64,000 nucleotides of DNA from Polytrichum commune (taxonomy: Eukaryota > Streptophyta > Polytrichopsida > Polytrichales > Polytrichaceae). Each line of letters opens with the position of its first letter. The first letter of the stretch is position 1. The DNA is taken from contig OX485806.1 of the NCBI GenBank assembly GCA_950295325.1, positions 7,070,001-7,134,000 on the forward strand, in the 5' to 3' direction. The notes below the pieces were generated by a model. It saw nothing but the letters and a program-made list of their open reading frames with translations, was not told the DNA's origin and did no database searches. The translations under genes were made by a program, and so were the position numbers. Of this stretch, positions 3,001 through 64,000 are shown one piece after another.

Positions 3001-5215
3001 ATCGAGATGTGAAAGCTGCCAACGTCTTGCTGGACGAGGACTTTGAGGCCCTTATCGGAGACTTTGGGTTGGCAAAGCTCATGAATTATAATGTAAGTCA
3101 AGTTACAACAGCTGTGCGAGGTACAATCGGGCACATTGCGCCGGAATATATGAGCACAGGCAGGTCGTCTGAGAAAACAGATGTGTTTGGCTATGGAATC
3201 TTCCTGCTGGAACTTGTCACCGGTCAGCGGGCAATTGATTTATCTCGGCTTACAACTGACCAGGATGTCATGCTCTTGGATTGGGTGAGTTTCTCTAAGT
3301 AGCACCATAACATTCTTCAGCCCTTGTTAGATGTTACGTGGAACCGGGAATAACTCGAGGTTTGTGCTCGCATAATGCTTTTCAAGATCCTCCCGGCACC
3401 AGATTCAATGTTGAATTCGGTGGCGACAAGCTCCCCTTGTCTAAAGCTCGTTAAGACCAGAATATTTCATACAACGATAGAGCCCGCCACTGAAAGGGCA
3501 GTACTACCCTGCGGGCTCTTCATTTATGCTTGCTTCCTATGGAAGCCGGTATTATACTACTGCTACTAAGTTACTACAACGAAGAAGGCGTTATTGTGAG
3601 GGAGTGAACCTAAAACGGACACTTTAAACTCTGCACCCACTTCTCTAGGATACTAAAGAATACAATTAGTTATTAGCAAATCCAAAATCTGGTCCCGTAA
3701 ACATTTTCCTCATGATTTTCCAAACTCGCATAAATGTCTTACTCATTTTCAAAGCGATTTTGAAGTGGAGATTCTCTTTCTTCTTAAATGATCATACAGC
3801 TCCACACCACAACACCCCCTGCCCCTCAAATAATCTATCGAACGTAGACCAGTAACAGATTCTGGATCATGCATAGTCCGATCTTCTCTAAACACATTTC
3901 TCTTGTGGTGACCATTCTTAAATCCACGCCCAACTACAAACCACTCAAATATATGTGTGAGGTAAAGGTACGTAGCCAAAGTAAGGCCACTTACCTTACT
4001 AGAGTGTTTGAATCATGTTGAGTAAACACAAGTTACGTGCTTTAGAACTGAGGTAAGCCAAATGAAGTATTCTGAGGAGGTCCACACTATCAACGGTTTT
4101 GTTTGAACCTTAATTGCACCACCTCCAAGTCGTCCTAATCTCTCAGTTTCTCAAAAATGTGTGTCAACAACCCTGAAAATTTAAATCGTTTATTGACATC
4201 AGGTAAGGAGACTGCTGAAGGAAGACAAAGTGGATGTACTGGCAGATCCTCATCTGAAGAAAAATTATGATCGAAGAGGAATTGAAGCATTATTGCAGGT
4301 GAGTCGCAAGTGACACCCCAAAGTGCTTCATTTGACCTATAGTGTGATGTGGCAGTGTAGGTTACTCGGTCAAAAATGGGAAAACAATGGTTGATCATGT
4401 AAAGTGGGTTCACATGAACAGCCACCAGTGCTTTTAGTTCATGTTCATGTCATACCTTTGAATAAGTGATAAATTTGAATTGAGTGTTTTGCCGACTTGG
4501 CATTAGATTATCACTTGCTAATGATCATAAATTCAAGCTCTCATCAAATGAAATGCTGGTACATAAAAGCAACTAACCACATGATTACTGAAGGGTTTAT
4601 ATGCAATCAATCCTATGTTCTTGTAATGTTCTTGGTCGAAGATATTAGGTTAACAAGAAGGTTTACAGGCTGACATGTATTGGGCGAAATAGAGGTATCC
4701 GTTAATTTTTGGGTCAAACTCTGGATCAGTTACCTTAGAGGCGAGTTTGCATAAAGTTATGGCTTAAATGAGTGGGACTGGGTTATATTGATTGGAGTAT
4801 GCAGAAAGTTCAGTCCACGAAAGTAAGTCAATGTCCAACTTGGAGCTTAGCAGAATAATTTGCAGGTGTTCAGTTTAAATCAGTGAGATCTTCTTTGCAC
4901 TGGCTCATTTTGCTACTAATAAACAAGAATGAGGAAGTTGGAAATGCGAGGCCAGTCAGTGAATCCATGTTAATTTTTGCAATGCAGATTGCGCTGCTTT
5001 GTTCACAGCCGTCTCCAAAGGACCGGCCTAAGATGAGCGAGGTGGTGAAAATGATAGAAGGGGAGGGATTAGAAGAACACTGGGATGAGTGGCAAAAAAT
5101 GGAATTGGCTCGCACGAGTGAAATGCCGTCGTATCCACAATTTCCAACAATATCAAATTGGACGTTAGACTCAACAGATTATGAGCCTGCTGTGGAGCTC
5201 TCTGGCCCAAGATAA
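1..5215 (+). CDS. SERK/BAK1-like LRR receptor kinase, 3' part
   Basis: Exons read as 1-60, 430-558, 1249-1466, 2312-2438, 2890-3284, 4203-4298 and 4988-5215, all with GT/AG introns and compatible phases, giving 416 residues to the TAA. In order they encode a Ser/Pro-rich juxtamembrane-outer segment ([12 protein letters not shown]), one transmembrane helix (around [12 protein letters not shown]), then a full kinase: glycine loop [15 protein letters not shown] lysine, HRD in [16 protein letters not shown] in GDFGLAKL, and [10 protein letters not shown]. The tail ends in the family-typical VELSGPR. SERKs are plasma-membrane co-receptors for LRR receptor kinases in hormone, development and immune signalling. 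Signal peptide and LRRs lie outside the window. All catalytic motifs are intact, so it is probably active. The paralogue (SERK1, BAK1 or other) cannot be told. Introns carry repeats. Confidence 0.93.
2562..2757. repeat. MITE-like inverted-repeat element (family B) in a SERK intron
   Basis: Left end reads TGTGGATTACCATTTGGAG. The right end is its near-perfect inverse, CTAATGGTAATCCACA. The roughly 195-bp element lies wholly inside the intron after the fourth visible SERK exon. The same termini bound elements near 21.02-21.23 kb and 47.99-48.18 kb, so this is a dispersed non-autonomous family. Confidence 0.65.
3479..3547. repeat. Hairpin-bearing short repeat in a SERK intron
   Basis: GAGCCCGC at 3480-3487 pairs perfectly with GCGGGCTC at 3511-3518, and AGGG/CCCT can pair inside. 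It is followed by 22 bases (3516-3537) identical to 27,810-27,831, then GGAAGCCG in both places. The sequence looks like the 3' part of a short interspersed element, but no promoter boxes were found. Confidence 0.45.
3711..4012 (-). repeat. Dispersed repeat family A copy, inverted, in a SERK intron
   Basis: This intron segment resembles the reverse complement of the family whose best copy is at 36,663-37,032. Shared blocks correspond to the stretches about an ACCACTCA-type core and the GGACTATATGCTC-like core. A similarly oriented copy occurs at about 37,730-37,960, in the same relative place of the decayed SERK copy. It may therefore have been present before the duplication. Confidence 0.5.
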
Positions 5216-7597
5216 TGAATCATGACACCAAGCTAACTAGAAATCCATGAAAGGCTTATGCCAAGGAACGAGTCTAATTAATAAAACTACATGGAACTAA
5301 GTTTATACTCCCACTTCTAAGATAAGGCATGTGGGGAGTCGTAGAGGAGAGGCAAAGAGCAAGAGAGGTTATCTCCACCTTTTTGATGTTGGGTTCTGAC
5401 ATGATCTCTCTAGTTGCTCATGAAGGATTGGTTCATGCCTTACATGGAAGTTTGGATTGGATACTGTTGCATTGGTATTTAAGAGCACATCGAGTGAGAT
5501 CCAATTGAGAGAGATCCAATTGAGAGAGAATTGGTGTGTCTTTAGAGTGAAGTGGTGTTATTCCTCCTTGTTTGGTGGTTCATGCTTTAGAGAGAACTCT
5601 AGAATTACAATGACAAGGAACTCATGTGATTTGTGGTTTGACATCCATAATCAAAGAAACTTAGCTCCTTACATATCAACTCCTAGAACAATATAGACCA
5701 AAGGGGAAGGGGTAACTAACAATCCACTAGAAAACACGGTGCAATGAAAGACAAGATCTTATTGCATTTCAAAGTCATTCTCAAAATAAATAATGAATAT
5801 GTCTAGAATATCAAATTTTTATGCTGAGAATAATTAAATGTATCCCAAAAATATTGATCAAGTATGCAAAAACATTTATCATAAATATACACATTATTTC
5901 ATAACTCCCATGAAGATATCCCTTTTATCTCAAGTGGTTCATATCTTAACATATTTAGTTCCTTGGGGATGGTTGCCATGTTCAGCCGGTGACCCTTGTC
6001 TTACAGACACCAATATGAACAATGGTAGATAAGTTTAGGTCTCTTTGTACTTGAGAAAAGGAAGCCAAAGAGAGCTTGGAACTTGCAATCGAATTCTTGA
6101 CATCTTCTTCGGAACTCTCTCAATTCTTGTTTGGCTTCGACTTTTTCCAGTAACAAAAATAATGTGGGATGCCATGGCATTGCAACTTTTGATGGACATG
6201 ATGCAGAGCCGAGTGCAAGGCAAAACCTTGTGGTGACTTCCTAATTGCCTTGAAAGATCAAGCTTAGTGCTTCCAAAGATTTGCCTCCAAACAATTGTGA
6301 TCACCCATGTGACAGTCGATTGTGCACGTGTTAGCCCCAGGGTGGCAAGACCTAGATAATAAGTAGGGGTCCTTGGAAAAATAATTTTTTGAATATTTAT
6401 AATGAGTTCATAATAAAGGATGCCAAAAGTATTAGTATCAAACATAGAAATGAAATCTTATTATGCCTTATGATAAGACATAATAACACATACTAAAGAA
6501 TATTTTTATTTACTAAGCATCATCGCACATGAGCGTACCGCTCATTCATCCCACATGAAGTAGAGATCGTTAATTCCAATCCCCTCCTAAAAGCATTCCC
6601 TGTGCATGCCTCCTAACCCGTAACTAGAGTCCACCTTGACCATTAACTTCCCAAGCAACCAAATATTGGTCAATGGAGACTTTGGGTATACATCAACATT
6701 CATCTGAGTAGATGAAGGCAAAGTTTCCAAGCCTAACAATTTGTGCACCAAATGACATCTTCCTTGTCCAAATTGGAGCACATCTTAATGCAAAACAAAA
6801 AAAGAACTAAAAAAACAAAAACAATACTAGAGAGAGAGAGAGAGAACCTTCTTTGTCACGGTATGCGGCGTCGACGGCCGCACCATATCCGTTGGGTTTC
6901 ATCCATCTAGATTTGGATGGATGAATCTAGATGTGGAGAGGAAGGCTCCTAAGTGAGGAGCCTCCTCCTTGGCTTGGCATTCTTGCCAAGTCAAGTCTTG
7001 TGAGTTAGTGTGTGGAGAGAGCTTTTGTGTGAGGTGTAGATTGCATGATTTTGCAATAAATCTTGAGTTCTTCTTCCCCTACTTACACTCTTGGATTCTC
7101 CCTTGGTGGAGTGAGAGATAGCTTGACTAGTTGTGTGCATTTGGAGAAAAATTAGAGCTCTTATGAGTGTTCTCATCTCTTCCTTCTCACTTGACAAGAA
7201 TGCCTCATTTTTTTATGTTTTCTACTTCATTCTTGAGATTTAATGCGCTATGGAGGGCGTGAAGATAAGGAGCAACGAAGTTCCGGAGTTTTGGAGCGGA
7301 GGAAGCCGCGGATTGTTGAAGCAACAAGAAGAAAGATGTGTGCTTGTGAAGTTTAGACATCACCTTGAATTGTGGTGAGAAATCTTGAATTCTCCACGGA
7401 ATTTCGTGCCATTTGTTTGCTTGCAAGCTTGAATTTACATTATTGAGCTTGTCAAGAACACTCTTGATTTTTATTCAAGTGTAATTTCATTCAAAAACAA
7501 ACTTAAAAAAAAAAAAAAAAATGAGAGAGAGATGGAGGAGGAGAGGCGGAGGAGGCCCTCTTGAACCTCCTGGTTGCTAAGTTGAACCGGCGGCACG

Positions 7598-7862
7598 CGG
7601 CGGCAAGCCCCCCCCCCCTCCTCTCCTTCCTCTTCCCCCTCCCCATTTCCCCCCCCCCCCCCCCCCCTTCCTACCTACCTCCCCTTCCCTTTACCTACCT
7701 ACCTCCCCCCCCCTTTAACCTCCCCCCCCCCCCCCTCCTACCTACCTCCCCTTCCCTTTACCTACCTACCTGCCCCCTTCCCCCCCCCCTCGCCGACACA
7801 CCCCTCCCAGCTGCGGCGGCAGCAGCAGCTGAGGGGCAGAGTTTTTTTTTTTTTTTTTTTTT
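7598..7862. repeat. C/T-rich low-complexity block with poly(T)
   Basis: Runs of C alternate with CTACCTACCT and CCCCTTCCCTTTAC units. The cassette of about 60 bp around CCTTCCCTTTACCTACCTAC occurs twice, and the block ends in a T run of about 23. The proline-rich ORF across it is a by-product of composition. Confidence 0.8.
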
Positions 7863-8318
7863 TGTATTACATTTTTTTTTGTATTTGTTTTTTTGTATTT
7901 ATGAATACAAAAACCAAATGCAATAAATTAAAATACAAATTCCTTGCATTAAAGCAAGATGTCTCTTGACAAAGCGAGGCGAAGACATTTATCTTGACAC
8001 AAAATTTGGAGGTATTCACATTTGTCAAGAAAGTGTAATTCTTGGGTTTATGAATAACAAACTTCGGCGATCGGATTGAGAGCACCTTCTTGAGTTGATT
8101 GGGGATTGTCGGAGTTTTGGTACCGAAATCATTTTGTTGGGAGAGGTGGAGCATGACGGGAGAGGTTCGCGGTAGCATCCGGCAACACGCGGAGGGCGTG
8201 GGAGCACGGCGAATTTGCGGTTAGCTTCATTTTCTCCCGCAACGACTTGATAGAGGTACTTGGCATAAGCGGGGATTTCTCCATTTCTTTTGGTTTAGAA
8301 GGAAAATAAGGGCATTGA

Positions 8319-23431: not shown

Positions 23432-23900
23432 GCCCCGATCACACCAGACGTTCCGTCCGGTTCCAAACGTGAAATTGCTAGGGATTATGTTCAAAAATAG
23501 ATGTTGCCCCACCACTTTTCACACTATTACAGCCGGAGATGCCGACGGATAGTGCCATAACTAGCCCAGTGTGATCAGCCCCTCATCATGCCCCGATCAC
23601 ACCAAATTTTCCGTCCAGTTCTAGCCGTGAAATTGTTGGGGATTATGTTCAAAAATAGATGTTGGCCCACCACATTTCACATTATTACAGCCGGAGATGC
23701 CGACATATGGTGTTAGAACTGACTGGTGTGATCAACCCCTCATGCCCCCATTACACCAGACTTTCCGACCGGTTCCAACCGTGAAATTGCTGAAGATTGT
23801 GTTCAAAAATAGATGTTGACTCACCACTTTTCACACTATTACAGCCGGAGATAGCGACGGATGGTGCGGTAACTAACTTAGCCGGTGTGATCAGCCCTCA
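23432..23900. repeat. Three tandem units of about 156 bp
   Basis: Units start at about 23,433, 23,591 and 23,745. Each opens with CCCCGATCACACCA (CCCCATTACACCA in the third), carries TGTTCAAAAATAGATGTTG and ATTACAGCCGGAGAT, and closes with GTGTGATCA. Each unit is thus also an inverted repeat. The array begins immediately after the pogo remnant. Confidence 0.85.
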
Positions 23901-25789
23901 GTCGGTCGGAGCTCCATGACGGCTGGTCAGTTCGAGGAGCTCAAGAGTCTGTTGTCGGCAACCAACCCTACGCAAACTACGTCTTATTACTTCCATGGCC
24001 TCCCCTCTCTCTCACCAAACCCTTCCCAAACTGGGATTTGCTGCCACTCTCAAGTTGGGGTGCAATTCCCTTGCCTTAGGCGAAGCCATCCCTGGCTGGC
24101 ACACAGATGGCTTGGAAGGCCGCGGATTCCGTGGGAGTTGAGCTCCATCGCAAGCCCGATCTTACGTTGTCAACCTCTCACCTTTTATTTCAGATGTGAT
24201 TTGAGCAGAAAAGTTGTAAGTTCTCCCGCCACTGAATTCTGGGCTTGGTGGGTGATGGCCTTCCTTGTAACATCCGTCAGAGCCTTGATATGCGAGTGTG
24301 TTACTTTGTGGTTGTGGATGTTCGCGGGAGAGGTATTAAATCAGCAACCGAGTGGCGTTCTACTCGTGGCTTGCTTGTGGGAGGGCACCCAATCAAGCTG
24401 GAAATGGGAAACACGCAGTGTACAGGTCTAATTCTACATTAAACCGAGTCAAATGACAATCTTGCGCTAGGATACTCTGCATCCCTGCAAGAAGTAAAAT
24501 TCTTGCTCAAGCCAAATTCTCTATCGAATCTGCGAGGCAGGCATTTTCTGTGCCGATGTCAAGTAATTTATGCTGCCTATTGCACCTCGATTGTTCAATT
24601 GGAACGCGATTTCAGCATATATCTAGTGTGGGGCTTGAGCTTCGTGATTTCTTGTACATACAACGCATAGCGAAGTGAACGATGTTGTGAACAATAACAG
24701 CGTTGTGCCCATCATTAGTATCGTTTTGCAAGCAAAACTACCCAAGGGTAGAGTGCTGCAGAGGGGCCCATCTCTGTCTGACCTTAGTTTCTTGGGATGA
24801 TTTGCTTGCCTAGGTTCTGCAAAGGCTGAACACTATCATGGTGGGTCACAAGCGACGGTGATGAATGCTGTTCTGCAGGGATTTCGTGGGAGGTTTTGCC
24901 ATCAATTCCAATGGTAGGGGAATTCACCTCCGTATTTCACTCTTCCTACCGAATGCTCTGATTGTACCTGACTTGGGTCTTGCCAGCCTAGCTGCCAAGC
25001 GCATTTATTTGAGGAATCCATTGTTAAAGCTCCACCACAATGATGTTGAAATGTTCGCTGGTGATAGTGATAGTGTTCGTTTCCCTCTTCTAAGAATTTT
25101 CCTGGTGATTAAAACTTCTATCTGGAGGCGAAGCTGTTACGTCTGTTTGATCTAATTCAAATTCAAGTCCTTCGGAGCCATATATTGCGTGGCGCAAATA
25201 ATGGAGAATGAAACGATATCTATTAAGGTGGCAGGGGGCATCCATTGATCGTTGTTTCCCCTCTGGTTTTGTAGATTTCATGCTGCCAGCTTGCTCATCT
25301 CAAGTTCTTTTGACAGGAAATGTGGAAGATTGTGTAATAGGCGCACTTAATCTGTTGCCTGTACCACTTGCAAGATTCTGCAAATGAACATAGAGGCAGG
25401 GAAGACTTTGCTCCAAGCGACAATTTCTTGGAGCACCCCCGACCTTAACTATCTATCTTATATTTGTATTTTTCTAGTATGGGCCAGTGCTGTCCCGGCT
25501 TGTTGCACCCTTACATATGATTTAATGTCCTGGGCCATTTCTGCACCGTCCCCTCAACATATCGTCACGGCTGACCGTTTGGAAGTTTGAAAGCCCGATA
25601 TAGTTGATTTTGGGTATGAGGTTGTTGGCCTATTAGGAAGCAGTTCTTATAGTACGTACAAATCAAACTCTGATAAGGACGAAAACTCTCCATTTTGGTC
25701 TCGTCAACTCTTCAAACTATGGTCATCATCAGAACATGATCTAAAGACGATGATCTGAAATTGTTCAGAGCAAAGATTCTAGCTTCAAA
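23901..25789. other. Unassigned region upstream of the TKL kinase
   Basis: Base composition is more even than in the repeats, and several open stretches (for example 23,916-24,431 and 24,865-25,155) overlap. None has a recognisable domain or consistent splicing. It could hold the kinase's 5' UTR exons and promoter, or a decayed gene. No function is claimed. Confidence 0.4.
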
Positions 25790-27643
25790 ATGGCCTACCA
25801 ATTACGTAGTGCAATGGAGTTCGTGGAAGACGGCGTTTTGAAAACATTCAAGCAGGATTTGAAGAAGGTGAAGGTAAATCACGCTCAATGTTCCGATGTA
25901 GTGCACAATATTGTAGTTGGTAGTGAGGAGAGCTTTGAGCTCTTGAAGAAGACACTTTTGCTACTTGATAGATTTGACTCTACCTCAATCTCAAAGGGTG
26001 AAGGAAGTGCCATGGCTGCTCGATTGAAATGTACTCAGGACCTGTGTTTCAGTGCACTGGCACAAATGGAACATTGCATAAAGAGGGTGCGAGTTTATGT
26101 ATCGCGCTGTGCGGAAGTGGAGTACTGGCGAACAGCTGTGAGAATGTCTCACTTTGTAAGTCCTCGAGCTTATTGTGCAGAATCACTTTCGAACACCAGA
26201 AGTACAGAGTCATTTTATCTGCTCCAAGATTTCTGGTGGAGTGTCGATGTGGTTCAGCTTGCAACTGTTTGTTTGAAAAAATTGCTCACGACAGTCGTTG
26301 ATGGTAAAATTCAATATGATGCGTTCAAGTGGTGTAATGGGAAATGTAGACTAGTTCTCAAAGACGGTGGCGAATGCGATTACACTGTGCTCAAGGAGGA
26401 CAACAAGGAGGATAATATCTGTTTGCATCATAAGGCTGATTTAGTGGACTCAGATATAAAAAAGCTGTTGCAGCAACTGAAGATGGAAGTTGGGAGCAAC
26501 TTCGCATGGTTCCTTTCTGCAGGTCAAAACCACGAGCAAAGACTGAAGATGTTTCTGAAGCAGGTATTGGAAGGACCACCGGTTCGAGTGGGTTACCTAC
26601 CTTCAACATTGAAGCTCGACTACCATGACATCAAGCTTAGTGATAGAATATTGGGGCAAGGAAGTTTTGGTGTGATACTTGAAGGCAAATGGCATGGAGA
26701 GACAGTTGCTGTCAAGTATATCAAGTTGGGTGACGATTTTGAGATTAAGAAGCAACTCCTTGAGAAGGAAGTTGCACTGTTGGCCTCTCTCCACCACCAT
26801 AATATAGTGAGGTTGATTGGGTTTACATACGATGAAGAAACAAAGAACTGTGTGATTGTAATGGAGCGTATGCAGATGAATCTCTGCAGCTTGATCAAAC
26901 ACAACCTTGATATATTCTCCAAAGACCTCCCCTCAGTGAAAACCGGAAGTGTACCAAGATTCGTTGAAAACCAAACCCCATTTCCTCTTGATGTGACAAT
27001 TGACTTGTTGTTACAGATCATAGAGGGCATGTGTCATTTGAGGGACTTCAGGGTGATTCATCGAGATTTGAGGTCAGCCAATATTCTAGTAAACAAATGT
27101 GCACAAGCATCATCCATGCTCTCCATGCCCTCTGTGGCCACCAATTTACGAGAATTTGAGCGTGGACATTTCTACCATGCGAAGGTTGCGGACTTTGGCA
27201 CGTCCAAGTCACAAATGAAGGATTCTGAGTTTTTCACGAAAGGCAAGGGGACCGTAAAATGGATGGCTCCGGAAGTTCTTGAGGCCACTTTCGAAGCGGA
27301 AGATGATACTCTACATTATTCATGGGATGCAGATGTGTACAGCTTCGGCATCACATGTTCAGAAATTCTGACAGGAGAACTCCCCTTCCAAGATGTGTCA
27401 GGGCGGAAACTTCTTGACTCAATATGTGCCGGCGTTAGGCCCCCTCTTCCTCCAGATTGTCCAGATTCGTTGAAGCGTATTGTTTGTGAGTGTTGGGATA
27501 CAAATCCCCAAAATCGACCCAATTGCTGGCAGGTTCGTGAGAGACTATGGGGCTGCAAATTGGAGATGTTTTTGCATCACAAGGAGAAGATGTCTGTGGG
27601 CCAAACCTTCTGCAATAACGTTCAAAGGTATGTAAAACGTTGA
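25790..27643 (+). CDS. TKL-like protein kinase, intronless
   Basis: One uninterrupted 617-residue frame with an ATG start. Residues 1-270 form a helical N-terminal region with no named domain that I recognise. The kinase domain starts near 282: glycine loop GQGSFG (289-294), VAVK with Lys309, catalytic HRD at 424-426 in IHRDLRSANIL, DFG at 468-470 and APE at 493-495 in WMAPEVLEA, then DVYSFGI. All catalytic residues are present. An insert of about 30 residues separates the HRD and DFG strands. Large families of such soluble TKL kinases with a helical N-terminus occur in mosses and other seed-free plants. There is no signal peptide or membrane segment, so a cytosolic kinase is likely. Substrate unknown. 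Confidence 0.93.
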   Translation: MAYQLRSAMEFVEDGVLKTFKQDLKKVKVNHAQCSDVVHNIVVGSEESFELLKKTLLLLDRFDSTSISKGEGSAMAARLKCTQDLCFSALAQMEHCIKRVRVYVSRCAEVEYWRTAVRMSHFVSPRAYCAESLSNTRSTESFYLLQDFWWSVDVVQLATVCLKKLLTTVVDGKIQYDAFKWCNGKCRLVLKDGGECDYTVLKEDNKEDNICLHHKADLVDSDIKKLLQQLKMEVGSNFAWFLSAGQNHEQRLKMFLKQVLEGPPVRVGYLPSTLKLDYHDIKLSDRILGQGSFGVILEGKWHGETVAVKYIKLGDDFEIKKQLLEKEVALLASLHHHNIVRLIGFTYDEETKNCVIVMERMQMNLCSLIKHNLDIFSKDLPSVKTGSVPRFVENQTPFPLDVTIDLLLQIIEGMCHLRDFRVIHRDLRSANILVNKCAQASSMLSMPSVATNLREFERGHFYHAKVADFGTSKSQMKDSEFFTKGKGTVKWMAPEVLEATFEAEDDTLHYSWDADVYSFGITCSEILTGELPFQDVSGRKLLDSICAGVRPPLPPDCPDSLKRIVCECWDTNPQNRPNCWQVRERLWGCKLEMFLHHKEKMSVGQTFCNNVQRYVKR

Positions 27644-44879: not shown

Positions 44880-45498
44880 TCGAGGGAGCAGGAGTTGAAC
44901 TTAACTAGACTAGTTAGATCCCCAAATTAAGAATTAAGAATGAAAAAGTTTTTGGACAAAGCATGCAAAAAAAAGAGCTTAGCACTACATTGTTTATGGT
45001 ATTCAATGCCATGTACACTATTTGCAAAGGGCCTCAACTAGATGCATAGAGGTCTCAAAGTGCCACGTTTGCCTAACGATTTTTCACACGTCTCAATAAG
45101 TGCACATCTTATGAGTTGTCTACCAATGAAACTTTGATCCCTTATAACTTTTGCATACGATACCCAAAGAATGCATACTTTGGTGCGTTTGGAATCCCTT
45201 TCAACTACTAACAAGAAACACTTTATTTAGTTTTTTCCCCCAATCTAATAAAAGTACATGTACTCACTGCTTAAAGTGACAGGTTTTAGCACCGTCTACG
45301 TAAGCACTGGACCTGCTCTGCCCAACTGGTTGTATGATTTCCCTAAGCTTAACAAAGTCAGAGAGCATTTCGTCATGGTCAGAAATCAAGTTAAGTTAGC
45401 TGCCACCTGACCCCGACTTAGCTGTGAGATCGAGATACATATGTGGATTCTAATGTACGACCAATCATGCCTCTCAACTTTATTTGTCACGGTTTTTG
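44880..45498. other. Unassigned, no gene seen
   Basis: AT-rich, with no recognisable coding or structural signal. Confidence 0.4.
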
Positions 45499-45806
45499 TC
45501 CGTTTTCTTGAGTCATGCAGCAGCCTACTCTAAACATCTACTCTAGACACCTAGTTCAGTCTAATGCGGCCATGAAATTGGTGTGTCATGTTGATTAGAG
45601 TCCGTTTTCGTGAGTCACGCAGCAGTCTACTCTAAACATCTACTTCAAGCACCTAATTTAGTCTAATGCAGCCATAAAATTGGTGTGCCATGTTGATTAG
45701 AGTCCGTTCCCGTGAGTCACACAGCAACCTACTCTAAACATCTACTCCAAGCACCTGATTTAGTCTAATGTTGCCATAAAAGTGGTGTGCCATGTTGATT
45801 AGAGTG
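45499..45806. repeat. Three tandem 102-bp units
   Basis: Units start at 45,499, 45,601 and 45,703 with TCCGTT(T/C)(T/C)C. Each contains CTACTCTAAACATCTACT, AGTCTAATG and CATGTTGATTAGAGT. Divergence is low, at about 10 changes per unit, so the amplification is fairly recent. Confidence 0.9.
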
Positions 45807-55890: not shown

Positions 55891-56344
55891 ATCTTTGTAT
55901 CGTGGTGAGTACGCAAAAGGAAAAAGAAAACAATTACAATCCTCATGCCGAACCCTACTTCTGTGTTGATTATGATGCGCTTTACTAATGTGACAAAAGC
56001 AAATGATTGTTAAACAAAATATACATTGCACGGAAACATTTTCTTGATCAAGGGACTTTGTTCATGCATTTTAATACCATAATAAGCTCCAACCATAGCT
56101 GCAACATTCCAAAATCAATTGCCTCCAAATTGCCATCCACTTGAATTAGGGTACAAGAACCCCAAGACATGGAAAATTTGGATTCTAGTGTACTAAACCG
56201 TAGTTCAATCATCATCCACAAGAAAAGCATTGTGATGTCCTTGCACTTCATTTGCAAGTTCTCATCATGAATCAAGACATGTGATATGTTCTCATGACTT
56301 TCAAGTTCAACCTCAAAATGAGAGATCATAAATGATCATATGTT

Positions 56345-57780
56345 CATGGATTCATAGAGGAATGCAACCTCGAAAAAGATATCCTCACAAACAAACAAGC
56401 CTTACAAATACAAGCCTTAGAATCCAACATATACGACCAAAATGGAAGATACATATCTATTATTACTACTGAAAGACTACATTGGTTATGGAATAATTCT
56501 CCCACAACAACCTCCCACAACTAGCCAACTTCTTACAACCACCACCGAAAATTATTTTGGCTCATACAAAGATATATAACCATACTCCCAAGAAAAAACC
56601 AAAAAAACATCCAACCCATCAACCAACATCACACTACACACTGGAATCACAAAATTGTTAATAAATTCCTTCGAAATCACACACTCATACTACTCATCCC
56701 TCCTTACTTACCCCATGCAACTCACGCACTATAACTCACCCCATAGTCGAGACATCCTATTTGGCTCTATGGGACATGCTAAATCCTCCAAATGGTATGG
56801 TGTAGGCCTAGCATACCCCATTGATCACAACACGACTTTAGAAGCTATTCATTGGGCTAGAATGGCAGCCAAAGAAGACGCCCACACATTAACTATCCTA
56901 ATCATCAACCACAAAGATTGGACACCACAACAACTCCCAATCACCAAACATGTTGACATACACACAATAATGATCGTACCACCACACACTATAAACTAAG
57001 ACCCCACAGTGGAATGGCCAAAATACTACCGGTATATAAAACAATCACTCACATCCATAATATGCATATATAACGAATCAAACCCCACAAGAACTCTAAT
57101 ATGTCATTCAAAAAATACATAATTTCCACGCAGATACCCACCCTATCAAACCTACCCCAACACATTACCACATCAAATTCTCCAACACATGGAAAAACAC
57201 CCCCATGGTAGACACACCCCCAAAAAATACCCTCACGACATCATACCAACCAAATACAACCACATCCATCCTCTTAAATTCCACCCACAACAAACTCAAA
57301 CGGATCCTTTATTCCACCCACCAAAAACTTTGAAGGCAAAAGTGAAGGCCATATCACATGATCAAGGATCTATAGCCCTAACAACAACATCCAAATATCA
57401 GAAAGACTACCAAGGTACCAATACATCCTAAGAGCATAGCTTAATGCGCTACTCATTGCTATCAAAACCATCCAGCTAGACATGCACATATTTACAAACA
57501 ACCTTAATAGCATATTTATCATTAACAACCACATACAACATCCATCATCGCAACACCATCACCCGGATAAATTACTTATAGCAACAATGTACACCAAATA
57601 TACTAGACCCCGCACAAAATCCACATACACAAAGTAAGAGCACATTTGGGCATCACTGGGAATGCAATAGCTGACACGCTAGCAAACGGAGCCATCTGCA
57701 ACCTTTCATACATTCATAGACAAAAAAAACACATGAATTGAGAATCCTCTGCAACCAAAAACAAATTCCCATACATTGAC
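56345..57780 (+). mobile_element. Retroelement ORF, copy 1 (frameshifted)
   Basis: Same protein as copy 2, but scattered over frames. NIYDQNGRY and ERLHWLWNN (about 56,423-56,492) match copy 2's HIYEDNGRH and TRLLWLWKQ. The open stretch 56,655-56,999 covers the PCIF1-like region (FGSMGHAKSSKWYGVG, AIHWARMAAKED). 57,480-57,590 gives the RNase H strand IFTNNLN and HHPDKLLIATM. 57,631-57,720 gives the RNase H end KVRAHLGITGNAIADTLA. The YTDGS region was not found. It lacks the zinc finger and tail. Stops and frameshifts make it a dead copy, older than copy 2. Confidence 0.8.
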
Positions 57781-57821
57781 AAATGACTATCAAACAATCA
57801 AATAGACCACAAACTCTTTAA

Positions 57822-60146
57822 TTGCTTTGGAAATTAGTCGTATATACTAGTCGTCATAACACCGAACTACTTACCCAATATTATACAAAAAGACAACACA
57901 AACACTTCTCAAACATCATCAATGCATACTTCTCCATAGAACAACAACGAGACACTAGATACGTTATCCCTGCCATAATTATCCCATTGGCACATATCTC
58001 CATCAATGAATGTAACCCAGAGAGTGACATCGAAACAAATACTAACACTATCCAAACACAATTCGACGTCGCTCACATATATGAAGATAACGGTCGGCAC
58101 CTCATTACCATCTCAAAAACTAGATTATTGTGGTTATGGAAACAATATCATCAAGCTAAAGATACCCCACATAGTCTAGAACCACCTACCCAATCATTTG
58201 AAACAGAAATTGTGTGGCTATACCAAAGGTATAAATACCGTATTCCAAAAAACGATCCACTTAAACGTGCCCAATACACAATACCAACTCCAATACTAGA
58301 CTTCCTAATAACATCCTTCAATATCAACCATTCATACTTCTCATCCCCAGTTACTTGCCCCATACAATTCACCCAATTCCACTCACCATTCTCCAGGGAT
58401 AGAATATTTGGATCCCTAGGAAAAGCGTTTGACCAAAAATGGAAGGGAATTGGTTACGCCCACCCCCATAACGCAACAGATTTACAACAAGCCATCCATT
58501 GGGCCCGCATTGCGGCCAAAAACGATCCAAATACAATCACTATACTTATTTCAAAAGACATGGATTGGTACCACAATTTTAACCCATATACTGGCCCATT
58601 CTCGGACACACACATCATTACCCACTTTGCAGCAGACACCATTATATACGAAGAACCCACAATTCCCCCCGAACTCAATATCACGAGAAAAGAATTATCA
58701 ACATTACGAATATTCTGTATCCACCACCAAAACAATCACATCGGTACCTACGAACAAATGAATCAACTCACCAACATAGCAAATAACCTCCAAATATTAC
58801 AAATTCACACACAAATTGCACCACCCACCCCCGTGAATACCGCCGTTAACCCTAGCAAAAAATGGGCTAAATCTAACTACCCAAACACACCCGTAAATAA
58901 TAACACACCTATTCCACAACTCCCAGATTACCAAACTAACTTACTACTAAAATTCCACCCTCAATTCAGCTACTACACAGACGGCTCTTTCATGAAACCC
59001 AAAGAAATTAACCCTGGAGTATGGAGAAGAGAAAGAGCCGGCTATGGAATCTATAGCCCCAAGGGCCTTAACATCTCCAAAAGACTATATGGACACCAAA
59101 ACATACTACGAGTAGAAATGATAGCAATACATGAAACACTAACAACCAGTAATACACTATACCCAAATGAACCCGCATACATATTTACCAACAGTCTAAA
59201 TGTATTACACTTACTCAACACACAAATTAAACACCCCGCACTTCACAATAGCCACCCCGACCAAATTACCCTCGCCACCATGGTACAACTACTTCAAAAC
59301 CGGACACAACCAATCACACTATACAAAGTTAGAGCACACGTCAACATTGACGGCAACGAACAGGCAGACAAATTGGCAAAAGAAGGGCTAGAACTAGAGC
59401 ACAGAATTGCCATTCATCCATATGAGCATGCTCATGCCACCCCATACTACTACCAAAAGGACATTTGGGCCTCAATGACGGACGTTCATGATAAAGGCCC
59501 CGTTAGATTCCTAGAAAAACAAATTATTAAATACGATAGGGAAAACAACTTGGAAAACATGGCCACACAAACCCCCAACACTTACAAATGGACAGGAAAT
59601 GCAGATATAGATAAAGAACTTTCTAACGAATTCTGGGAAAACCCGGAAGTCACGGATAAACAAAAATCATGCCTCATCAAATTCCGAACAGGAACCTATA
59701 TGGGCAATGCTCGAAAACAATTGTTCTTCGGTAGACAAACATATCCCTCTATTACATGCCCCATTTGCACCTCATACGAACCGGACACGTGGTTACATGT
59801 GCTACTTACGTGTAAACAACAACATATACATTCACTCCACGTCAAAAGACACAACAAAGCAGTATGGGAAATTAGGAAACTACTAATCTCATCTGAGAAA
59901 TCTAGATGTTATACTCTCATGAATGCTGGCACTTTCAATAATACACCCCAGGAAAACACTGTTCCCAACTGGCTACTCCCTTGCACATGCGGTACACAAA
60001 GATGCCATTGTAACTCCAGATTTAGACCTGACATCCTCTGTGTTAGAGGATTACCATACCAAAATGACCCCCCCACAGACTTGGACCCCAACCTCACCAT
60101 ACAATTCCTCGAATTTACATACTGTAATGATAGATTCTCTCCATAA
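57822..60146 (+). CDS. Retroelement protein: PCIF1-like + RNase H + zinc finger, copy 2
   Basis: An open frame of 774 codons; the first codon is TTG and no early ATG exists, so the true start is unknown or lost. Residues 163-250 resemble the PCIF1-type region (HSYFSSPVTCPIQFTQFHSP, FGSLG, AIHWARIAAK). Where PCIF1 enzymes have NPPF, this reads HPHN. RNase H1 follows: YTDGS with D387, E432, FTNSLN with N457 in place of the catalytic Asp, and RAHVNIDGNEQADKLA with H506 and D516. A zinc finger C646-x2-C649-x9-H659-x4-C664 and a Cys cluster CTCGTQRCHC (721-730) complete it. RNase H would remove RNA from the RNA-DNA hybrid during retrotransposition. No reverse transcriptase or endonuclease is present, so this is a 5'-truncated LINE-like ORF. 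The A/C-rich, G-poor sequence differs sharply from the surroundings. Confidence 0.8.
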   Translation: MLWKLVVYTSRHNTELLTQYYTKRQHKHFSNIINAYFSIEQQRDTRYVIPAIIIPLAHISINECNPESDIETNTNTIQTQFDVAHIYEDNGRHLITISKTRLLWLWKQYHQAKDTPHSLEPPTQSFETEIVWLYQRYKYRIPKNDPLKRAQYTIPTPILDFLITSFNINHSYFSSPVTCPIQFTQFHSPFSRDRIFGSLGKAFDQKWKGIGYAHPHNATDLQQAIHWARIAAKNDPNTITILISKDMDWYHNFNPYTGPFSDTHIITHFAADTIIYEEPTIPPELNITRKELSTLRIFCIHHQNNHIGTYEQMNQLTNIANNLQILQIHTQIAPPTPVNTAVNPSKKWAKSNYPNTPVNNNTPIPQLPDYQTNLLLKFHPQFSYYTDGSFMKPKEINPGVWRRERAGYGIYSPKGLNISKRLYGHQNILRVEMIAIHETLTTSNTLYPNEPAYIFTNSLNVLHLLNTQIKHPALHNSHPDQITLATMVQLLQNRTQPITLYKVRAHVNIDGNEQADKLAKEGLELEHRIAIHPYEHAHATPYYYQKDIWASMTDVHDKGPVRFLEKQIIKYDRENNLENMATQTPNTYKWTGNADIDKELSNEFWENPEVTDKQKSCLIKFRTGTYMGNARKQLFFGRQTYPSITCPICTSYEPDTWLHVLLTCKQQHIHSLHVKRHNKAVWEIRKLLISSEKSRCYTLMNAGTFNNTPQENTVPNWLLPCTCGTQRCHCNSRFRPDILCVRGLPYQNDPPTDLDPNLTIQFLEFTYCNDRFSP

Positions 60147-60535
60147 ACACTCGAAGCAAAAAATAACAAGTACAAACCATTAATTGATAGTATTGCTGCT
60201 AGAGGATGGAAAGTTGACCCCCTTATTATAATCACCGCTGGCGCTAGAGCCACTACACACATTCCTTCAATGAAATCACTCGAAAATAAATTTAAAATAC
60301 CTATGTCTACCATTAAAAATACCTTTAAAAACATCAATACTATCGCTATAAAATATGCCATGACTATCCTCCTACACAAAAGAAGAATAGAAAACCATCA
60401 ACCACTACCCCAAACACTAGACCCCCCTTAGATAAAGCCATAAAACCTTAACAACTAAGCTACTCCACCCCATCCACTAACAAAGAACTAGAAACATGGC
60501 GACCCAAATCATACTAACAACCCCCCCCCCCCTAA
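60147..60535 (+). mobile_element. Copy 2 readthrough tail and 3' UTR
   Basis: The frame of the 774-codon ORF continues after the TAA (60,144-60,146) for 94 codons to TAG at 60,429-60,431. It gives YKPLIDSIAARGWKVDPLII and an RRIENHQPLP end that align with copy 3's tail. The stop therefore interrupts an ancestral longer protein. About 100 bp of A/C-rich 3' UTR with a C-run follow. Confidence 0.8.
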
Positions 60536-60544
60536 TAACTAACC

Positions 60545-60735
60545 ATTTTGGTTCGTGTTACTAGTGACTGGTGACTATAGTGTCTACTCTCGAAAGGGAG
60601 GAGTAGATCTTCACCTCCATACCTTTGTCCTGTGGGCATTGGATTGGAGGAGGATCGAACAGACACTTCATTCACGTCGGTCTCTTCGGAGACCGAAGTT
60701 TTTCTCTCTTTCTCTCTCTGCTTTGGAAAGCCGAG
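60545..60735 (+). repeat. Hairpin-bearing repeat (family H) between retroelement copies
   Basis: Contains GATCGAACAGACACTTCATT, then a perfect 7-bp hairpin CGGTCTC-TTCG-GAGACCG (60,679-60,696), GAAGTTT and (TTTCTCTC)n. About 60 bp match the inverse of 49,822-49,890. The GATCGAAC string resembles, weakly, a pol III B-box. It may be a SINE or a retroelement UTR. The homology of copy 3 begins just after it. Confidence 0.65.
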
Positions 60736-60739
60736 GTCA

Positions 60740-61518
60740 TAACCAACGCCCAAATTACCCAAACTCTAAAATTAAGATATGCTCAATACGTGGGCAACTA
60801 TAGAAAAAATACCTTTTGGACCCTCACACACCAAAACCCTAATGACATGTTGTGCCTAATAATGATAGACACATGGCCACACCTCCTATCAACATGTGAG
60901 AACTCACACATAAAAAACCTAAGAATATCACGCCACAACAAAGCAATGCACCTCATTGCCCAAACACTACGAGCCAACAAATCTACCCAGTTCTTCACAT
61001 TGACCAATACATGTAGCTTTAACAACAAACCACCTAACTCAACCATCCCGGAATGGCGATTGAAATGCACATGCACACACACAACATGCAAATGCCAAGT
61101 GAAACTAAGACCATACATCCTATGCATAATAGGAGCCCCAAACCAAATAAAAACACCAATATCACCCTCCCTTACACTCACAATCCAACACATAGAATTT
61201 ACATATTGTCGTGATAGATTTCTTGACCAAGTCCTCGAACAAAAACACACCAAGTATGACCCACTAATTAACATTGTACAAAATAGTGGATGGAAAATCA
61301 ACCCTCTCATTACCATCACACTCGGATTGAGAGGAGGAGCCACACATGAACACTGCATCAAAAAAGTCACCAACCTAAACACCCCAAAATCAAATATTAA
61401 AACCCTTATAAAAAGAATACACCAAAACCCCATCAAATATCACACATATCTAGTCTTAAACAAAAGAAAACTTGACAACAAACAAGCACCCGTCCTCCCC
61501 CCAATGAACTTGGGATAA
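60740..61518 (+). mobile_element. Retroelement ORF, copy 3 (C-terminal third)
   Basis: An open frame whose part from about 60,740 matches copy 2 from about residue 615 on. It holds DTWPHLLSTCEN and ISRHNKAM (zinc-finger end), FTLTNTCSFNN, the Cys cluster CTCTHTTCKC, QHIEFTYCRDRFLDQVLEQK and WKINPLITITLGLRGG. It then runs to TAA at 61,516-61,518. The first CxxC of the zinc finger has eroded. The PCIF1-like and RNase H parts are absent. Divergence from copy 2 is high, so it comes from a different subfamily. The part of the frame before 60,740 is the hairpin repeat, not ancestral coding sequence. Confidence 0.75.
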
Positions 61519-64000
61519 CTACTCTACTACCAGAGCCCACCTCCTAAAGGAGGCATAACACCCTATGTCGCATCATGATTAACTGTGATCAACATACAAC
61601 TAACGGGCTCACATTAATGCCAGTTCCTAGATACGAGCATTACTATGATTTTATATATGTTCATGGGTTGCGTATGGATGAACTTTTGAAATGCTTATAC
61701 ATACTTTATTGAGTTATAAATAATAGACTACCAGTCATTCTGTGATGAATGTAATCTCTTATTAACGCCATTAATTTGTTAAATTTATTTATTTTTATTA
61801 TTTTTAGTAGAGGCAACCTTTCCTATTATAAATGTGAATAAAGGTCTCAATTTAACCATTAAGAGGGATGTAATTAAGTAAAAATAGACTAAGTTAAAGT
61901 CTAAGTCTAAAATATAACATGTTGAATTTTATTATAGTATCTTAAAATAAAATTGTATGATAAGATCCTCCAATAAAATGTGTAGAGTTGATTATGATAG
62001 TAATATGGCAGATGTTTTGATTGTATTTTCATTATTCAACATTTCTTATATAAAATTAACACAAATATAAGTATTTGAGTTATTCTGATCATGTTTTAAT
62101 AGTATAACATTTAAGTAATCATTGAGTTCACATTCCTCCCATAAAATTTAGGCATATCAAAACTGCATCGACAGATTTGCCCATAGATTTGAGACAACTT
62201 TTTTAAAACATATGCATATTTACTTAAATATGTCATTGTCCATCTTTTGAATGAAAATGTAGACATTTGGATTATGACTACGGTATATATATGGATTTAT
62301 GGGTTTTTCTATCGACATCATGGATGGAAAAATGATGGATTATTATAATATTATATTTGTAGGGTCAATAATTAACCCCTAAATCCATGAGAGACCAAAA
62401 ATGACCAAAATTTGAGGGTCTTGGACTCGAATGAGGTGTGCAACTTCTTAAGGTGGATGTGAAGTGTCAATCAACATTAATGATTTTGATTTGTTATCTA
62501 GTGCCCCAAATTTCGTTGGATTTGAACAAAATCTTAATCTAATGGATTTTTTCAAAGTGACCATGTGCCAAAACAGTTGTCAGCCATTGTTTTTGAAAAC
62601 ATGCCCTGCAATGATGTTGTGCCATGTGTGGCAATGCATAGCCCGAGGTAAGATGTGGGCAAGTCCATGTTGAGGCCGGGGGAAAACATGTTTTGGGCTC
62701 TGCCCTTGATTTCGTTGGTTTGCGTGCCAAACCATTTGGGTTCCCCATAACACCACCAACCCACAAACATCCCACCTTTACACACTGGTCCAAGTGCCAT
62801 TGCCTTACAACTAAAAGTTTGCTCAAAGCCTACAATGCAAAGGAGGCATTGAATTCGGGCCCCCAAATGGATGCGGAGGCCGAGCATCGGTAGTGTTGCT
62901 ACTACACAAGAGTAGAAGTTCGGAAGCTCTTCATCAAGCAATGAGAGTGGTAGATCGGAATAATTCCCAAACCCATGCTTGTGCAAGAGAAGGGTTCGAG
63001 GAGGAGGTGGGCCAAGGACCTCTTTTTGGCTCTGCTTGACCCCAGTGCCATGCTTGCCTTTCACAAAAATTGTCTAAATACACCTGGGAATGTGTCACAT
63101 GACAAAAGAACGCTAAAATGTGCTTGGAAAGCTATGAAATGTTGCAATGAATCTTTATATTACATGTTCTACCTACCTACTATTGGAATGGGTAAATACA
63201 ATTTTGTGGCTACCCAAATAAAATGTGATTTTGGATGCAAAATGGAGTCATTCACATTGCAAGGGCTCTCAAAAAATCACATGTCATGTGGTCATCCATT
63301 CGCTCATGTCAGCAAGATTAAAAAAAAATTAAGTAGGTGCCTTGCCTTGTATCCCTTCACACATACTCTAAAGTCTCACACATTTTGACACATGGATAGT
63401 TATTATTTTCCCACATAACACCTATAGTGTTCCACATTATATCCATATGTTTGGATGATGAAGAACACCTTCAAATTTCACTTCAAAAAATCTCAACTAG
63501 AAAGTGTGATTTCAAACCTATTTTGGGAAGAATGCAACCTAGGGATCTATGGGTAAAAAAAGGCTCAAGTACATGATGCACAATGTGAAGACAATATACT
63601 CAAAGCCACTAGAACAAGTCCATAAGTTTTGTTCATTTGATGTTGGATTGTCCCAATTTAGGGCACACCTCCATGAGCCAACCAACTTGGTGAAAATCAC
63701 TAACTTATTTGTGAAATAAAAAAATTGACCCTCTTCCACAAGGAAATATGAGGTTATTTACCCTAGAGAGTGAGAATGAACAACCAACACATAAATTAGA
63801 AGTAATCCAAATTTTAGGAGATGCATGTGCGGTAGGGGGGGGGGGTACAATTGCCTTTTTTCTAGAATATGAGAATGCCTTTATTTTCATGATACAAGGA
63901 GCCAATAGAATCAAAATCCCTATGTAGGGAAAATAACATAAAGTCTATAATTGAGTGGCCACAACACAAAGAATGCAACTGCATGAAAAGGAAGGAGGAA
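61519..64000. other. AT-rich flank, no gene recognised
   Basis: The first 100 bp are probably copy 3 3' UTR. After that the sequence is AT-rich. From about 62.46 to 63.1 kb it is more balanced, with an open minus-strand frame (63,064-62,552) that has no recognisable domain. No repeat ends were defined. Confidence 0.4.

Follow-up and report, generated by a model that had tools for sequence, protein, structure and literature searches.

Results and Discussion

We found that two sequences in the window (the whole 64-kb stretch of Polytrichum commune DNA analysed here) belong to a large non-LTR retrotransposon family, of which they are 5'-truncated insertions, one nested in the other. The family encodes a domain that profile comparison identifies as a homologue of the PCIF1/CAPAM methyltransferase core. 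This PCIF1-like domain is carried by two abundant lineages, A and B, and for lineage B taken alone the homology is marginal.

Two nested insertions in the window

The corrected borders of copy 1 are 56350-61654, with a 12-bp target-site duplication (TSD), ATATGTTCATGG, at 56338-56349 and again at 61655-61666; those of copy 2 are 57834-60718, with an 11-bp TSD, TGCTTTGGAAA, at 57823-57833 and again at 60719-60729. Copy 2, a member of lineage A, sits within copy 1, a member of lineage B, and divides it into a left part (56350-57833) and a right part (60730-61654); both copies and all their coding features lie on the forward strand. When the flanks were shuffled (2000 trials each), duplications of these lengths were reached in 1/2000 trials for copy 1 and 0/2000 for copy 2. 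Rfam and tRNA scans of the 64-kb window gave no matches.

The open frame of copy 2 extends from 57822 to 60146, and in tblastn the copy shares 83% amino acid identity across 861 residues (frame 57846-60428) with L001, a long-frame copy elsewhere in the genome. Its PCIF1-like core, located by Pfam PCIF1_WW and alignment, lies at 58149-58748 and corresponds to residues 1866-2065 of the L001 ORF; the Pfam match proper covers 58176-58448 (residues 119-209, E 9.3e-10, 38.8 bits against a cut-off of 31.1). Downstream are an RNase H at 58965-59390 (Pfam RNase_H, residues 382-523, E 6.1e-13, over the cut-off), a C2HC finger of the form C-x2-C-x9-H-x4-C, read from the translation, at 59757-59813, and a Cys-rich, restriction-endonuclease-like tail at 59982-60431, which is recognised by motif only, has no profile match and is interrupted by one in-frame stop. 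The 3' UTR (60432-60718) ends in a hairpin and a pyrimidine-rich tail and has a 72% blastn match at 60570-60707. The RNase H of copy 2 reads IFTN in place of the IFTD of L001.

In copy 1 the frames are broken. The left part, delimited by tblastn with the L001 ORF and by the TSDs, holds a PCIF1-like core, open at 56631-56996 and 48% identical to copy 2 in the aligned part, which a lineage-B query matches at 56580-56996, and a frameshifted RNase H remnant at 57296-57696; their tblastn identities to L001 are 36-37.5% and 32-50%, respectively. The finger and Cys-rich tail were found past copy 2 by tblastn (60721-61485, 42%), in the right part, which also contains the 3' UTR. Compared by eye, this 3' UTR resembles that of L052, a lineage-B long-frame copy. 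The domain order given for copy 2 in the preliminary description, from PCIF1-like region through RNase H and finger to Cys-rich tail, is thus borne out by the Pfam matches and the translation, and its statement that copy 1 repeats the PCIF1-like to RNase H order independently agrees with the finding of the same order in a copy of the other lineage.

Long-frame copies elsewhere in the genome

The preliminary description had proposed a genome-wide hunt for fuller copies with reverse transcriptase (RT), and such copies were found. Outside the window, the 408-Mb genome contains copies with open frames of 2,400-2,900 codons, which encode in a single protein, in order, a 2A-like motif, an APE endonuclease, RT, the PCIF1-like domain, RNase H, the C2HC finger and, as judged by motif only, a Cys-rich, restriction-like tail of PD-(D/E)xK-like type. 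The PCIF1-like domain follows RT and precedes RNase H in both lineages alike. In the long frames of L001 and L045, PCIF1_WW, RT and RNase H all score over the Pfam cut-offs, and RNase_H does so in L052 as well as in copy 2. For APE, 5/5 segments match both Exo_endo_phos_2 and Exo_endo_phos at E up to 1, with a match over the cut-off in L045 and L052 and under it in L001. The best PDB match of the RT is R2 (E 1e-29 for L001 and 8e-29 for L052). The C2HC finger is present in seven of eight long frames and an RPD...EFT motif in six of eight; the exceptions are L053, whose frame stops before both, and L045, which lacks the RPD pattern. The C-terminal tail gave no relevant PDB match with a tail profile and no Pfam match in L001, L045 and L052. 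A search for the TSDs of two full-length copies gave no repeated word of at least 8 bases near the assumed ends, and no relatives beyond the source genome were found in collections of viral contigs and genome contigs.

The absence of RT from the window copies is explained by their 5' truncation. The preliminary description, which reported a protein without reverse transcriptase, was therefore right for the window copies and wrong for the element: an RT-less protein is ruled out by the long-frame copies with RT together with the TSD-flanked, truncated nature of the window copies.

Relationship of the domain to PCIF1

The Pfam family PCIF1_WW is, according to the accessible text of PMC7641849, a misnamed CAPAM-like methyltransferase family. 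Searching the genome with it gave 697 first-look candidates, of which 150 were scored and 150/150 were over the cut-off, with E down to 1.1e-12. It matched 23/23 chosen members of lineage A and, at E up to 1 (best 9.3e-9), 17/17 members of lineage B, that is, 40/40 of the members scanned. By hhalign against PCIF1 segments, lineage A scored 92.5% and an APE control 0.5%, at a low identity to PCIF1 of 23%, and the SPxxC and D-xxFGSxG landmarks are colinear. The PDB matches of lineage A to PCIF1 are weak (E 0.012 and 0.13). Lineage B scored 40.6% in hhalign and had no PCIF1 match in the PDB search, and its member L052, with 30.0 and 26.7 bits, stays below the Pfam cut-off of 31.1; the profiles of the two lineages align with each other over 350 columns at 100% probability. 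Chance similarity was rejected in view of the Pfam E-values, the consistent matches among members and the score of the negative control. The kinship to PCIF1 that had been proposed for this region is thus upheld, at low identity and with lineage B marginal. AlphaFold2, run on an alignment of the 2 window sequences only, gave no usable model (pLDDT 31.5).

No WW domain is among the Pfam matches of L001, L045 and L052. The region before the core had no profile match, and no search detected a helical domain in the element; the 145 residues preceding the core are constrained (dN/dS 0.05 for the pair L001-L046).

The genome was also searched with a 67-aa segment of human PCIF1, and 110/110 of the scored sequences matched (best E 0.003). 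Among 14 further loci checked, including the three best, 13 match the profile of the element domain and one, L080, does not; the idea that these matches stem from a host PCIF1 gene was rejected. No host PCIF1 gene was found with the human segment, although one might be hidden by introns. We also came across a third, degraded lineage, in which NPPF is present in none of the eight loci read out of 12 looked at. One of these eight, L090, looks closer to lineage B.

Catalytic motif and selection

The NPPF motif had been described as not conserved, and the alignment agrees: its catalytic Asn is found in 0/62 aligned rows, and [NDS]PP[FYW] occurs nowhere in the aligned region of any row. The site reads HPH in lineage A and FPT in lineage B. 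Within lineage A the His-Pro is invariant (44/44 rows), which suggests that the loop at the NPPF site is also constrained. The D, F, G and G of DxxFGSxG are kept in 62/62 rows. For the unsaturated pair L001-L046, dN/dS is 0.09 in the core, 0.07 in RT and 0.36 in the linker. The loss of NPPF, the retention of DxxFGSxG and a core dN/dS near that of RT indicate that the domain still has a function, though probably not that of a standard adenine methyltransferase. The earlier judgement that binding is likelier than catalysis is in keeping with a domain that has lost the motif but remains under purifying selection.

Possible function of the domain

We consider it somewhat probable, from the pattern of conservation, that the domain is a pseudo-methyltransferase retained for nucleic-acid handling, likeliest by gripping the element's own RNA. 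It would do so inside the copying complex, between the modules for polymerisation and RNase H, and would hold the RNA most plausibly by its capped 5' end; the grip would favour full-length self RNA as the template, or late insertion steps. PCIF1 itself is reported to bind the m7G cap, with contact via its helical domain (PMC10544176, accessible text). That no search detected such a domain in the element speaks against this reading, as do the marginal standing of lineage B and the weak PDB matches of lineage A. A bolder version, which we regard as unlikely, is that the LINE has converted the cellular methyltransferase of the cap-adjacent adenosine into a cap reader in its own RT. This reader would keep the capped 5' end of the mRNA close to polymerase and RNase H, verify that the template is full-length and the element's own, and couple first-strand completion to second-strand steps. 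If true, this would explain in direct molecular terms how a non-LTR element chooses its template.

Retroviruses and LTR elements offer a precedent for a structural role: their RTs contain an inactivated RNase H that serves as a connection or tether. The PCIF1-like domain might likewise be a structural connector, a dead methyltransferase fold that sets the distance and orientation of RT and RNase H along the template hybrid with no recognition of cap or sequence; its placement in the long frames and the fact that both lineages have lost the catalytic motif point that way. However, DxxFGSxG residues invariant in 62/62 rows seem to go beyond the needs of a spacer, and to our knowledge most LINEs with RNase H have no such domain, so that we hold a mere connector to be rather unlikely. 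Methyltransferase activity through a non-canonical motif (HPH in lineage A, FPT in B), which would mark the RNA or cDNA of the element, would account for the invariant motif-I-like residues and the lineage-A His-Pro, but the catalytic Asn is missing from every row, its replacement differs between the lineages, and NPPF mutants of PCIF1 are described as inactive (PMC10544176, accessible text); such activity is quite improbable. It is more improbable by far that the domain is element-specific and resembles PCIF1 by chance or convergence: the identity of only 23% and the marginal standing of lineage B would allow this, but the lowest E-values, the match of all scanned members, the colinear landmarks and the 0.5% of the control speak against it.

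Comparison with known elements

The domain layout of the element appears to be that of a Dualen-like LINE, supplemented by one domain. Dualen/RandI elements are described as combining APE and RT with RNase H and, at the C terminus, a restriction-like tail (PMC4640811, accessible text); APE, RT and RNase H are common to both, and our element has a candidate for the tail by motif only, whereas the PCIF1-like domain between RT and RNase H is added in our element. With PCIF1/CAPAM, which methylates the cap-adjacent adenosine to m6Am, the element shares the homologous methyltransferase core, but it lacks NPPF and a WW match, and its domain is embedded in a retrotransposon protein. In the accessible text of PMC3266345, the pol of DIRS1-like elements combines RT and RNase H with a methyltransferase domain of unknown function, a combination resembling ours; as described there, however, DIRS elements have a tyrosine recombinase and the methyltransferase after RNase H, whereas our element has APE and an RLE-like tail and the domain before RNase H. 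No tyrosine recombinase is among the Pfam matches of L001, L045 and L052, and the window shows TSDs and 5' truncation instead. Orchid Gypsy elements carrying an AlkB demethylase active in vitro (PMC9289625) and retrotransposons with DNMTs (PMC5890265) are, as far as the accessible texts describe them, likewise retroelements with a captured enzyme of nucleic-acid methylation; they represent other element classes and enzymes, and the orchid enzyme is active whereas the domain studied here lacks the catalytic motif. Among the literature matches listed, which cover the field in part and include few subscription papers or preprints, there is no description of a retrotransposon encoding a PCIF1-type domain.

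Accessory domains reveal the host steps that retroelements must handle. With a cap-methyltransferase fold that is conserved yet catalytically altered lying between RT and RNase H, it becomes a testable question whether there are LINEs that recognise their own RNA by its capped end.

Nested copies of the element in the window

In the 774-aa open frame of copy 2 (57822-60146), residues 119-209 match Pfam PCIF1_WW (E 9.3e-10; 38.8 bits against a cut-off of 31.1) and residues 382-523 match Pfam RNase_H (E 6.1e-13); a C-x2-C-x9-H-x4-C finger and then a Cys-rich tail, broken by one in-frame stop, follow downstream in the translation. Pfam and translation thus agree with the order given in the preliminary description, a PCIF1-like region, RNase H, a CxxC-H-C finger and a Cys-rich tail. 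Copy 1 was recovered by tblastn in a left part (56342-57696; PCIF1-like 36-37.5%, RNase H 32-50%) and a right part (60721-61485; 42%), and it does repeat the order from PCIF1-like region to RNase H, as had been stated. Copy 2 (57834-60718, flanked by 11-bp duplications) sits within copy 1 (56350-61654, flanked by 12-bp duplications). In a shuffled-flank control, 11 bp was reached for copy 2 in none of 2000 trials and 12 bp for copy 1 in 1 of 2000. The 3' UTR of copy 2 ends in a hairpin and then a CT-rich tail (60570-60718).

Copy 2 begins just upstream of the PCIF1-like region, so the missing reverse transcriptase (RT) is explained by ordinary 5' truncation. In its RNase H, IFTN stands in place of the IFTD of L001, the full-length reference copy from the same genome; the Asp of this motif is a catalytic residue, so copy 2 is probably dead.

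Elsewhere in the window, a 629-aa open frame with a protein kinase domain (25754-27643, plus strand; Pfam PK_Tyr_Ser-Thr, E 1.6e-50) is probably a host gene. The segment 12001-16000 is asymmetric between strands: GC skew runs from about -0.14 to -0.18 and AT skew from about +0.13 to +0.15. Long frames were not found in it. Short arrays of three repeats each lie at 23432-23875 (spacing 154-158 nt) and 45498-45803 (spacing 102 nt).

The full-length element

The search covered this one eukaryote genome (408 Mb, 64 contigs), and its counts are lower bounds comprising scored matches only. Perfect TTTAGGG arrays numbered 619 forward and 662 reverse, against 0 and 1 in the reversed control, some of them at the start of contig C1; such repeats are consistent with a plant or green alga. 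With the copy 2 protein as query, at least 58 matches were obtained, 82-100% identical and including copy 2 itself (58 scored among 5981 first-look candidates). A frame of 2625 codons occurs in three copies, each on another contig, which share 99.0-99.5% identity across roughly 9.5 kb; the family has therefore moved recently. Five other long frames measure 2924, 2919, 2663, 2422 and 2409 codons from stop to stop.

The long frames encode, in order, a 2A-like NPGP motif, an APE endonuclease, RT, the PCIF1-like domain, RNase H, a C2HC finger and an RPD...EFT tail, and an additional open frame lies upstream. RT with YADD and the RNase H motifs were present in all eight. The protein had been described as lacking RT, which holds for the window copies but not for the element, whose long frames encode it. 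The finger was seen in 7 of the 8 and the tail motif in 6; the frame of L053 stops short of the finger, and L045 is without the RPD pattern. In L045, RVT_1, RNase_H, PCIF1_WW and Exo_endo_phos all exceed the Pfam cut-off within one frame. The NPGP motif occurred in 5 of 5 long frames examined, the sequence before NPG being variable; in L053 (ORF 730-7956) it occurs twice, at about residues 197 and 351, within a repeated stretch. All six lineage-A copies examined (L001, L043-L047) terminate in a hairpin followed by TATC-type repeats.

Ahead of the 2A-like motif, L045 and L046 differ from L001 in their 5' parts; nucleotide similarity begins only well inside the long frame, and their upstream frames are longer than that of L001; it is as if 5' ends had been swapped between copies.

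Two lineages with a PCIF1-like domain

Pfam PCIF1_WW, said to be a misnomer for a CAPAM-like methyltransferase (PMC7641849), gave at least 150 matches over the cut-off (150 of 150 scored, among 697 first-look candidates), and all 40 loci chosen from these by score and variety were confirmed to carry the domain. The copy 1 core likewise gave at least 150 matches, all at 61% or more (150 scored among 1742 candidates), the best five after copy 1 itself at 71-75%; copy 1 is therefore assigned to another abundant lineage, B. An hhalign comparison of the two lineages spans 350 columns at 40% identity, with a probability of 100%. PCIF1_WW was found in 23 of 23 chosen lineage-A members (E up to 0.01) and 17 of 17 of lineage B (E up to 1; best 9.3e-9), L052 of lineage B falling below the cut-off (30.0 bits; 26.7 in the full frame).

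Against PDB, the lineage-A profile retrieved PCIF1 chains only, weakly (6irx, E 0.012; 6irv, E 0.13), and the lineage-B profile did not find PCIF1. Against two PCIF1 segments, hhalign gave 92.5% with A and 40.6% with B; the APE control reached 0.5%. The proposed PCIF1 relationship is thus upheld for lineage A by profile comparison as well as by the Pfam match of copy 2, and lineage B taken alone is marginal. A structure model of the domain failed (pLDDT 31.5), and the domain borders beyond the Pfam match were set by us.

Loss of the catalytic motif

Where the alignment to human PCIF1 ends, ANPPF stands opposite AHPHN of lineage A with middling confidence, and the hhalign alignments end short of the NPPF position; we therefore ran a placement-free motif search. 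The 62 rows comprised 60 of the 63 fetched loci, those whose core is covered by an open frame, and the two window copies; 59 are distinct by place, L004/L045, L029/L046 and L030/L047 being repeat copies. None of the 62 rows contains [NDS]PP[FYW] anywhere in the part that was aligned, and none has Asn at the catalytic position, in line with the earlier view that NPPF is not conserved. Lineage A has His followed by Pro in 44 of 44 rows; lineage B has Phe (15), His (2) or Tyr (1), followed by Pro in 18 of 18. In a degraded third lineage (12 loci looked at), NPPF occurred in none of the 8 loci read. PCIF1 with a mutated NPPF is reported to be inactive (PMC10544176). Within DxxFGSxG, by contrast, all 62 rows retain the D, the F and both G residues, and by analogy with class I methyltransferases this motif may form the SAM pocket.

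Constraint and inheritance

dN/dS was estimated by the Nei-Gojobori method, distant pairs with saturated dS being left out. Between L001 and L046 (dS 0.3-0.9) it was 0.09 in the core, 0.05 in the 145 residues upstream, 0.07 in both RT and APE, 0.05 in RNase H and 0.36 in the post-core linker. Between L052 and L053 the values, rough because dS is high (core 1.3, RT 3.4), were 0.11 for the core, 0.16 pre-core, 0.03 for RT, 0.08 for RNase H and 0.38 for the post-core linker. Both of these lineage-B frames are defective, L052 being 49 residues short in its RT region relative to L001 and the L053 frame ending early. L052 resembles L053 more closely than it does L001 in RT (82 vs 59%), core (77 vs 45%) and RNase H (83 vs 44%), the pattern expected if domain and element have descended together from before the A/B split.

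Relation to known elements and possible role

Dualen/RandI elements are described as combining APE, a restriction-like endonuclease (RLE) and RNase H (PMC4640811). Our element shares APE and RNase H with them and has a putative RLE recognised by motif; we call it Dualen-like and do not place it in the group. Other reports describe a methyltransferase domain of unknown function downstream of RNase H in DIRS1-like elements (PMC3266345), an RNA demethylase, active in vitro, in orchid Gypsy elements (PMC9289625), and DNMTs acquired by retrotransposons in dinoflagellates and charophytes (PMC5890265). Among the literature matches listed, their titles and the beginnings of their abstracts mention no retrotransposon with a PCIF1-type domain, and an earlier description is possible.

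The domain is homologous to PCIF1, lies between RT and RNase H, has lost the catalytic motif and is under constraint. A pure connector joining RT and RNase H is a serious rival to any binding role. We favour a pseudo-methyltransferase that would bind nucleic acid. PCIF1 itself contacts the m7G cap through its helical domain (PMC10544176); searches gave no match to that domain in the element, and the conserved stretch ahead of the core might correspond to it. That the element's domain reads the RNA cap is a proposal to which we give clearly less than even odds, and we give similar odds to a more general hold on the template or hybrid.
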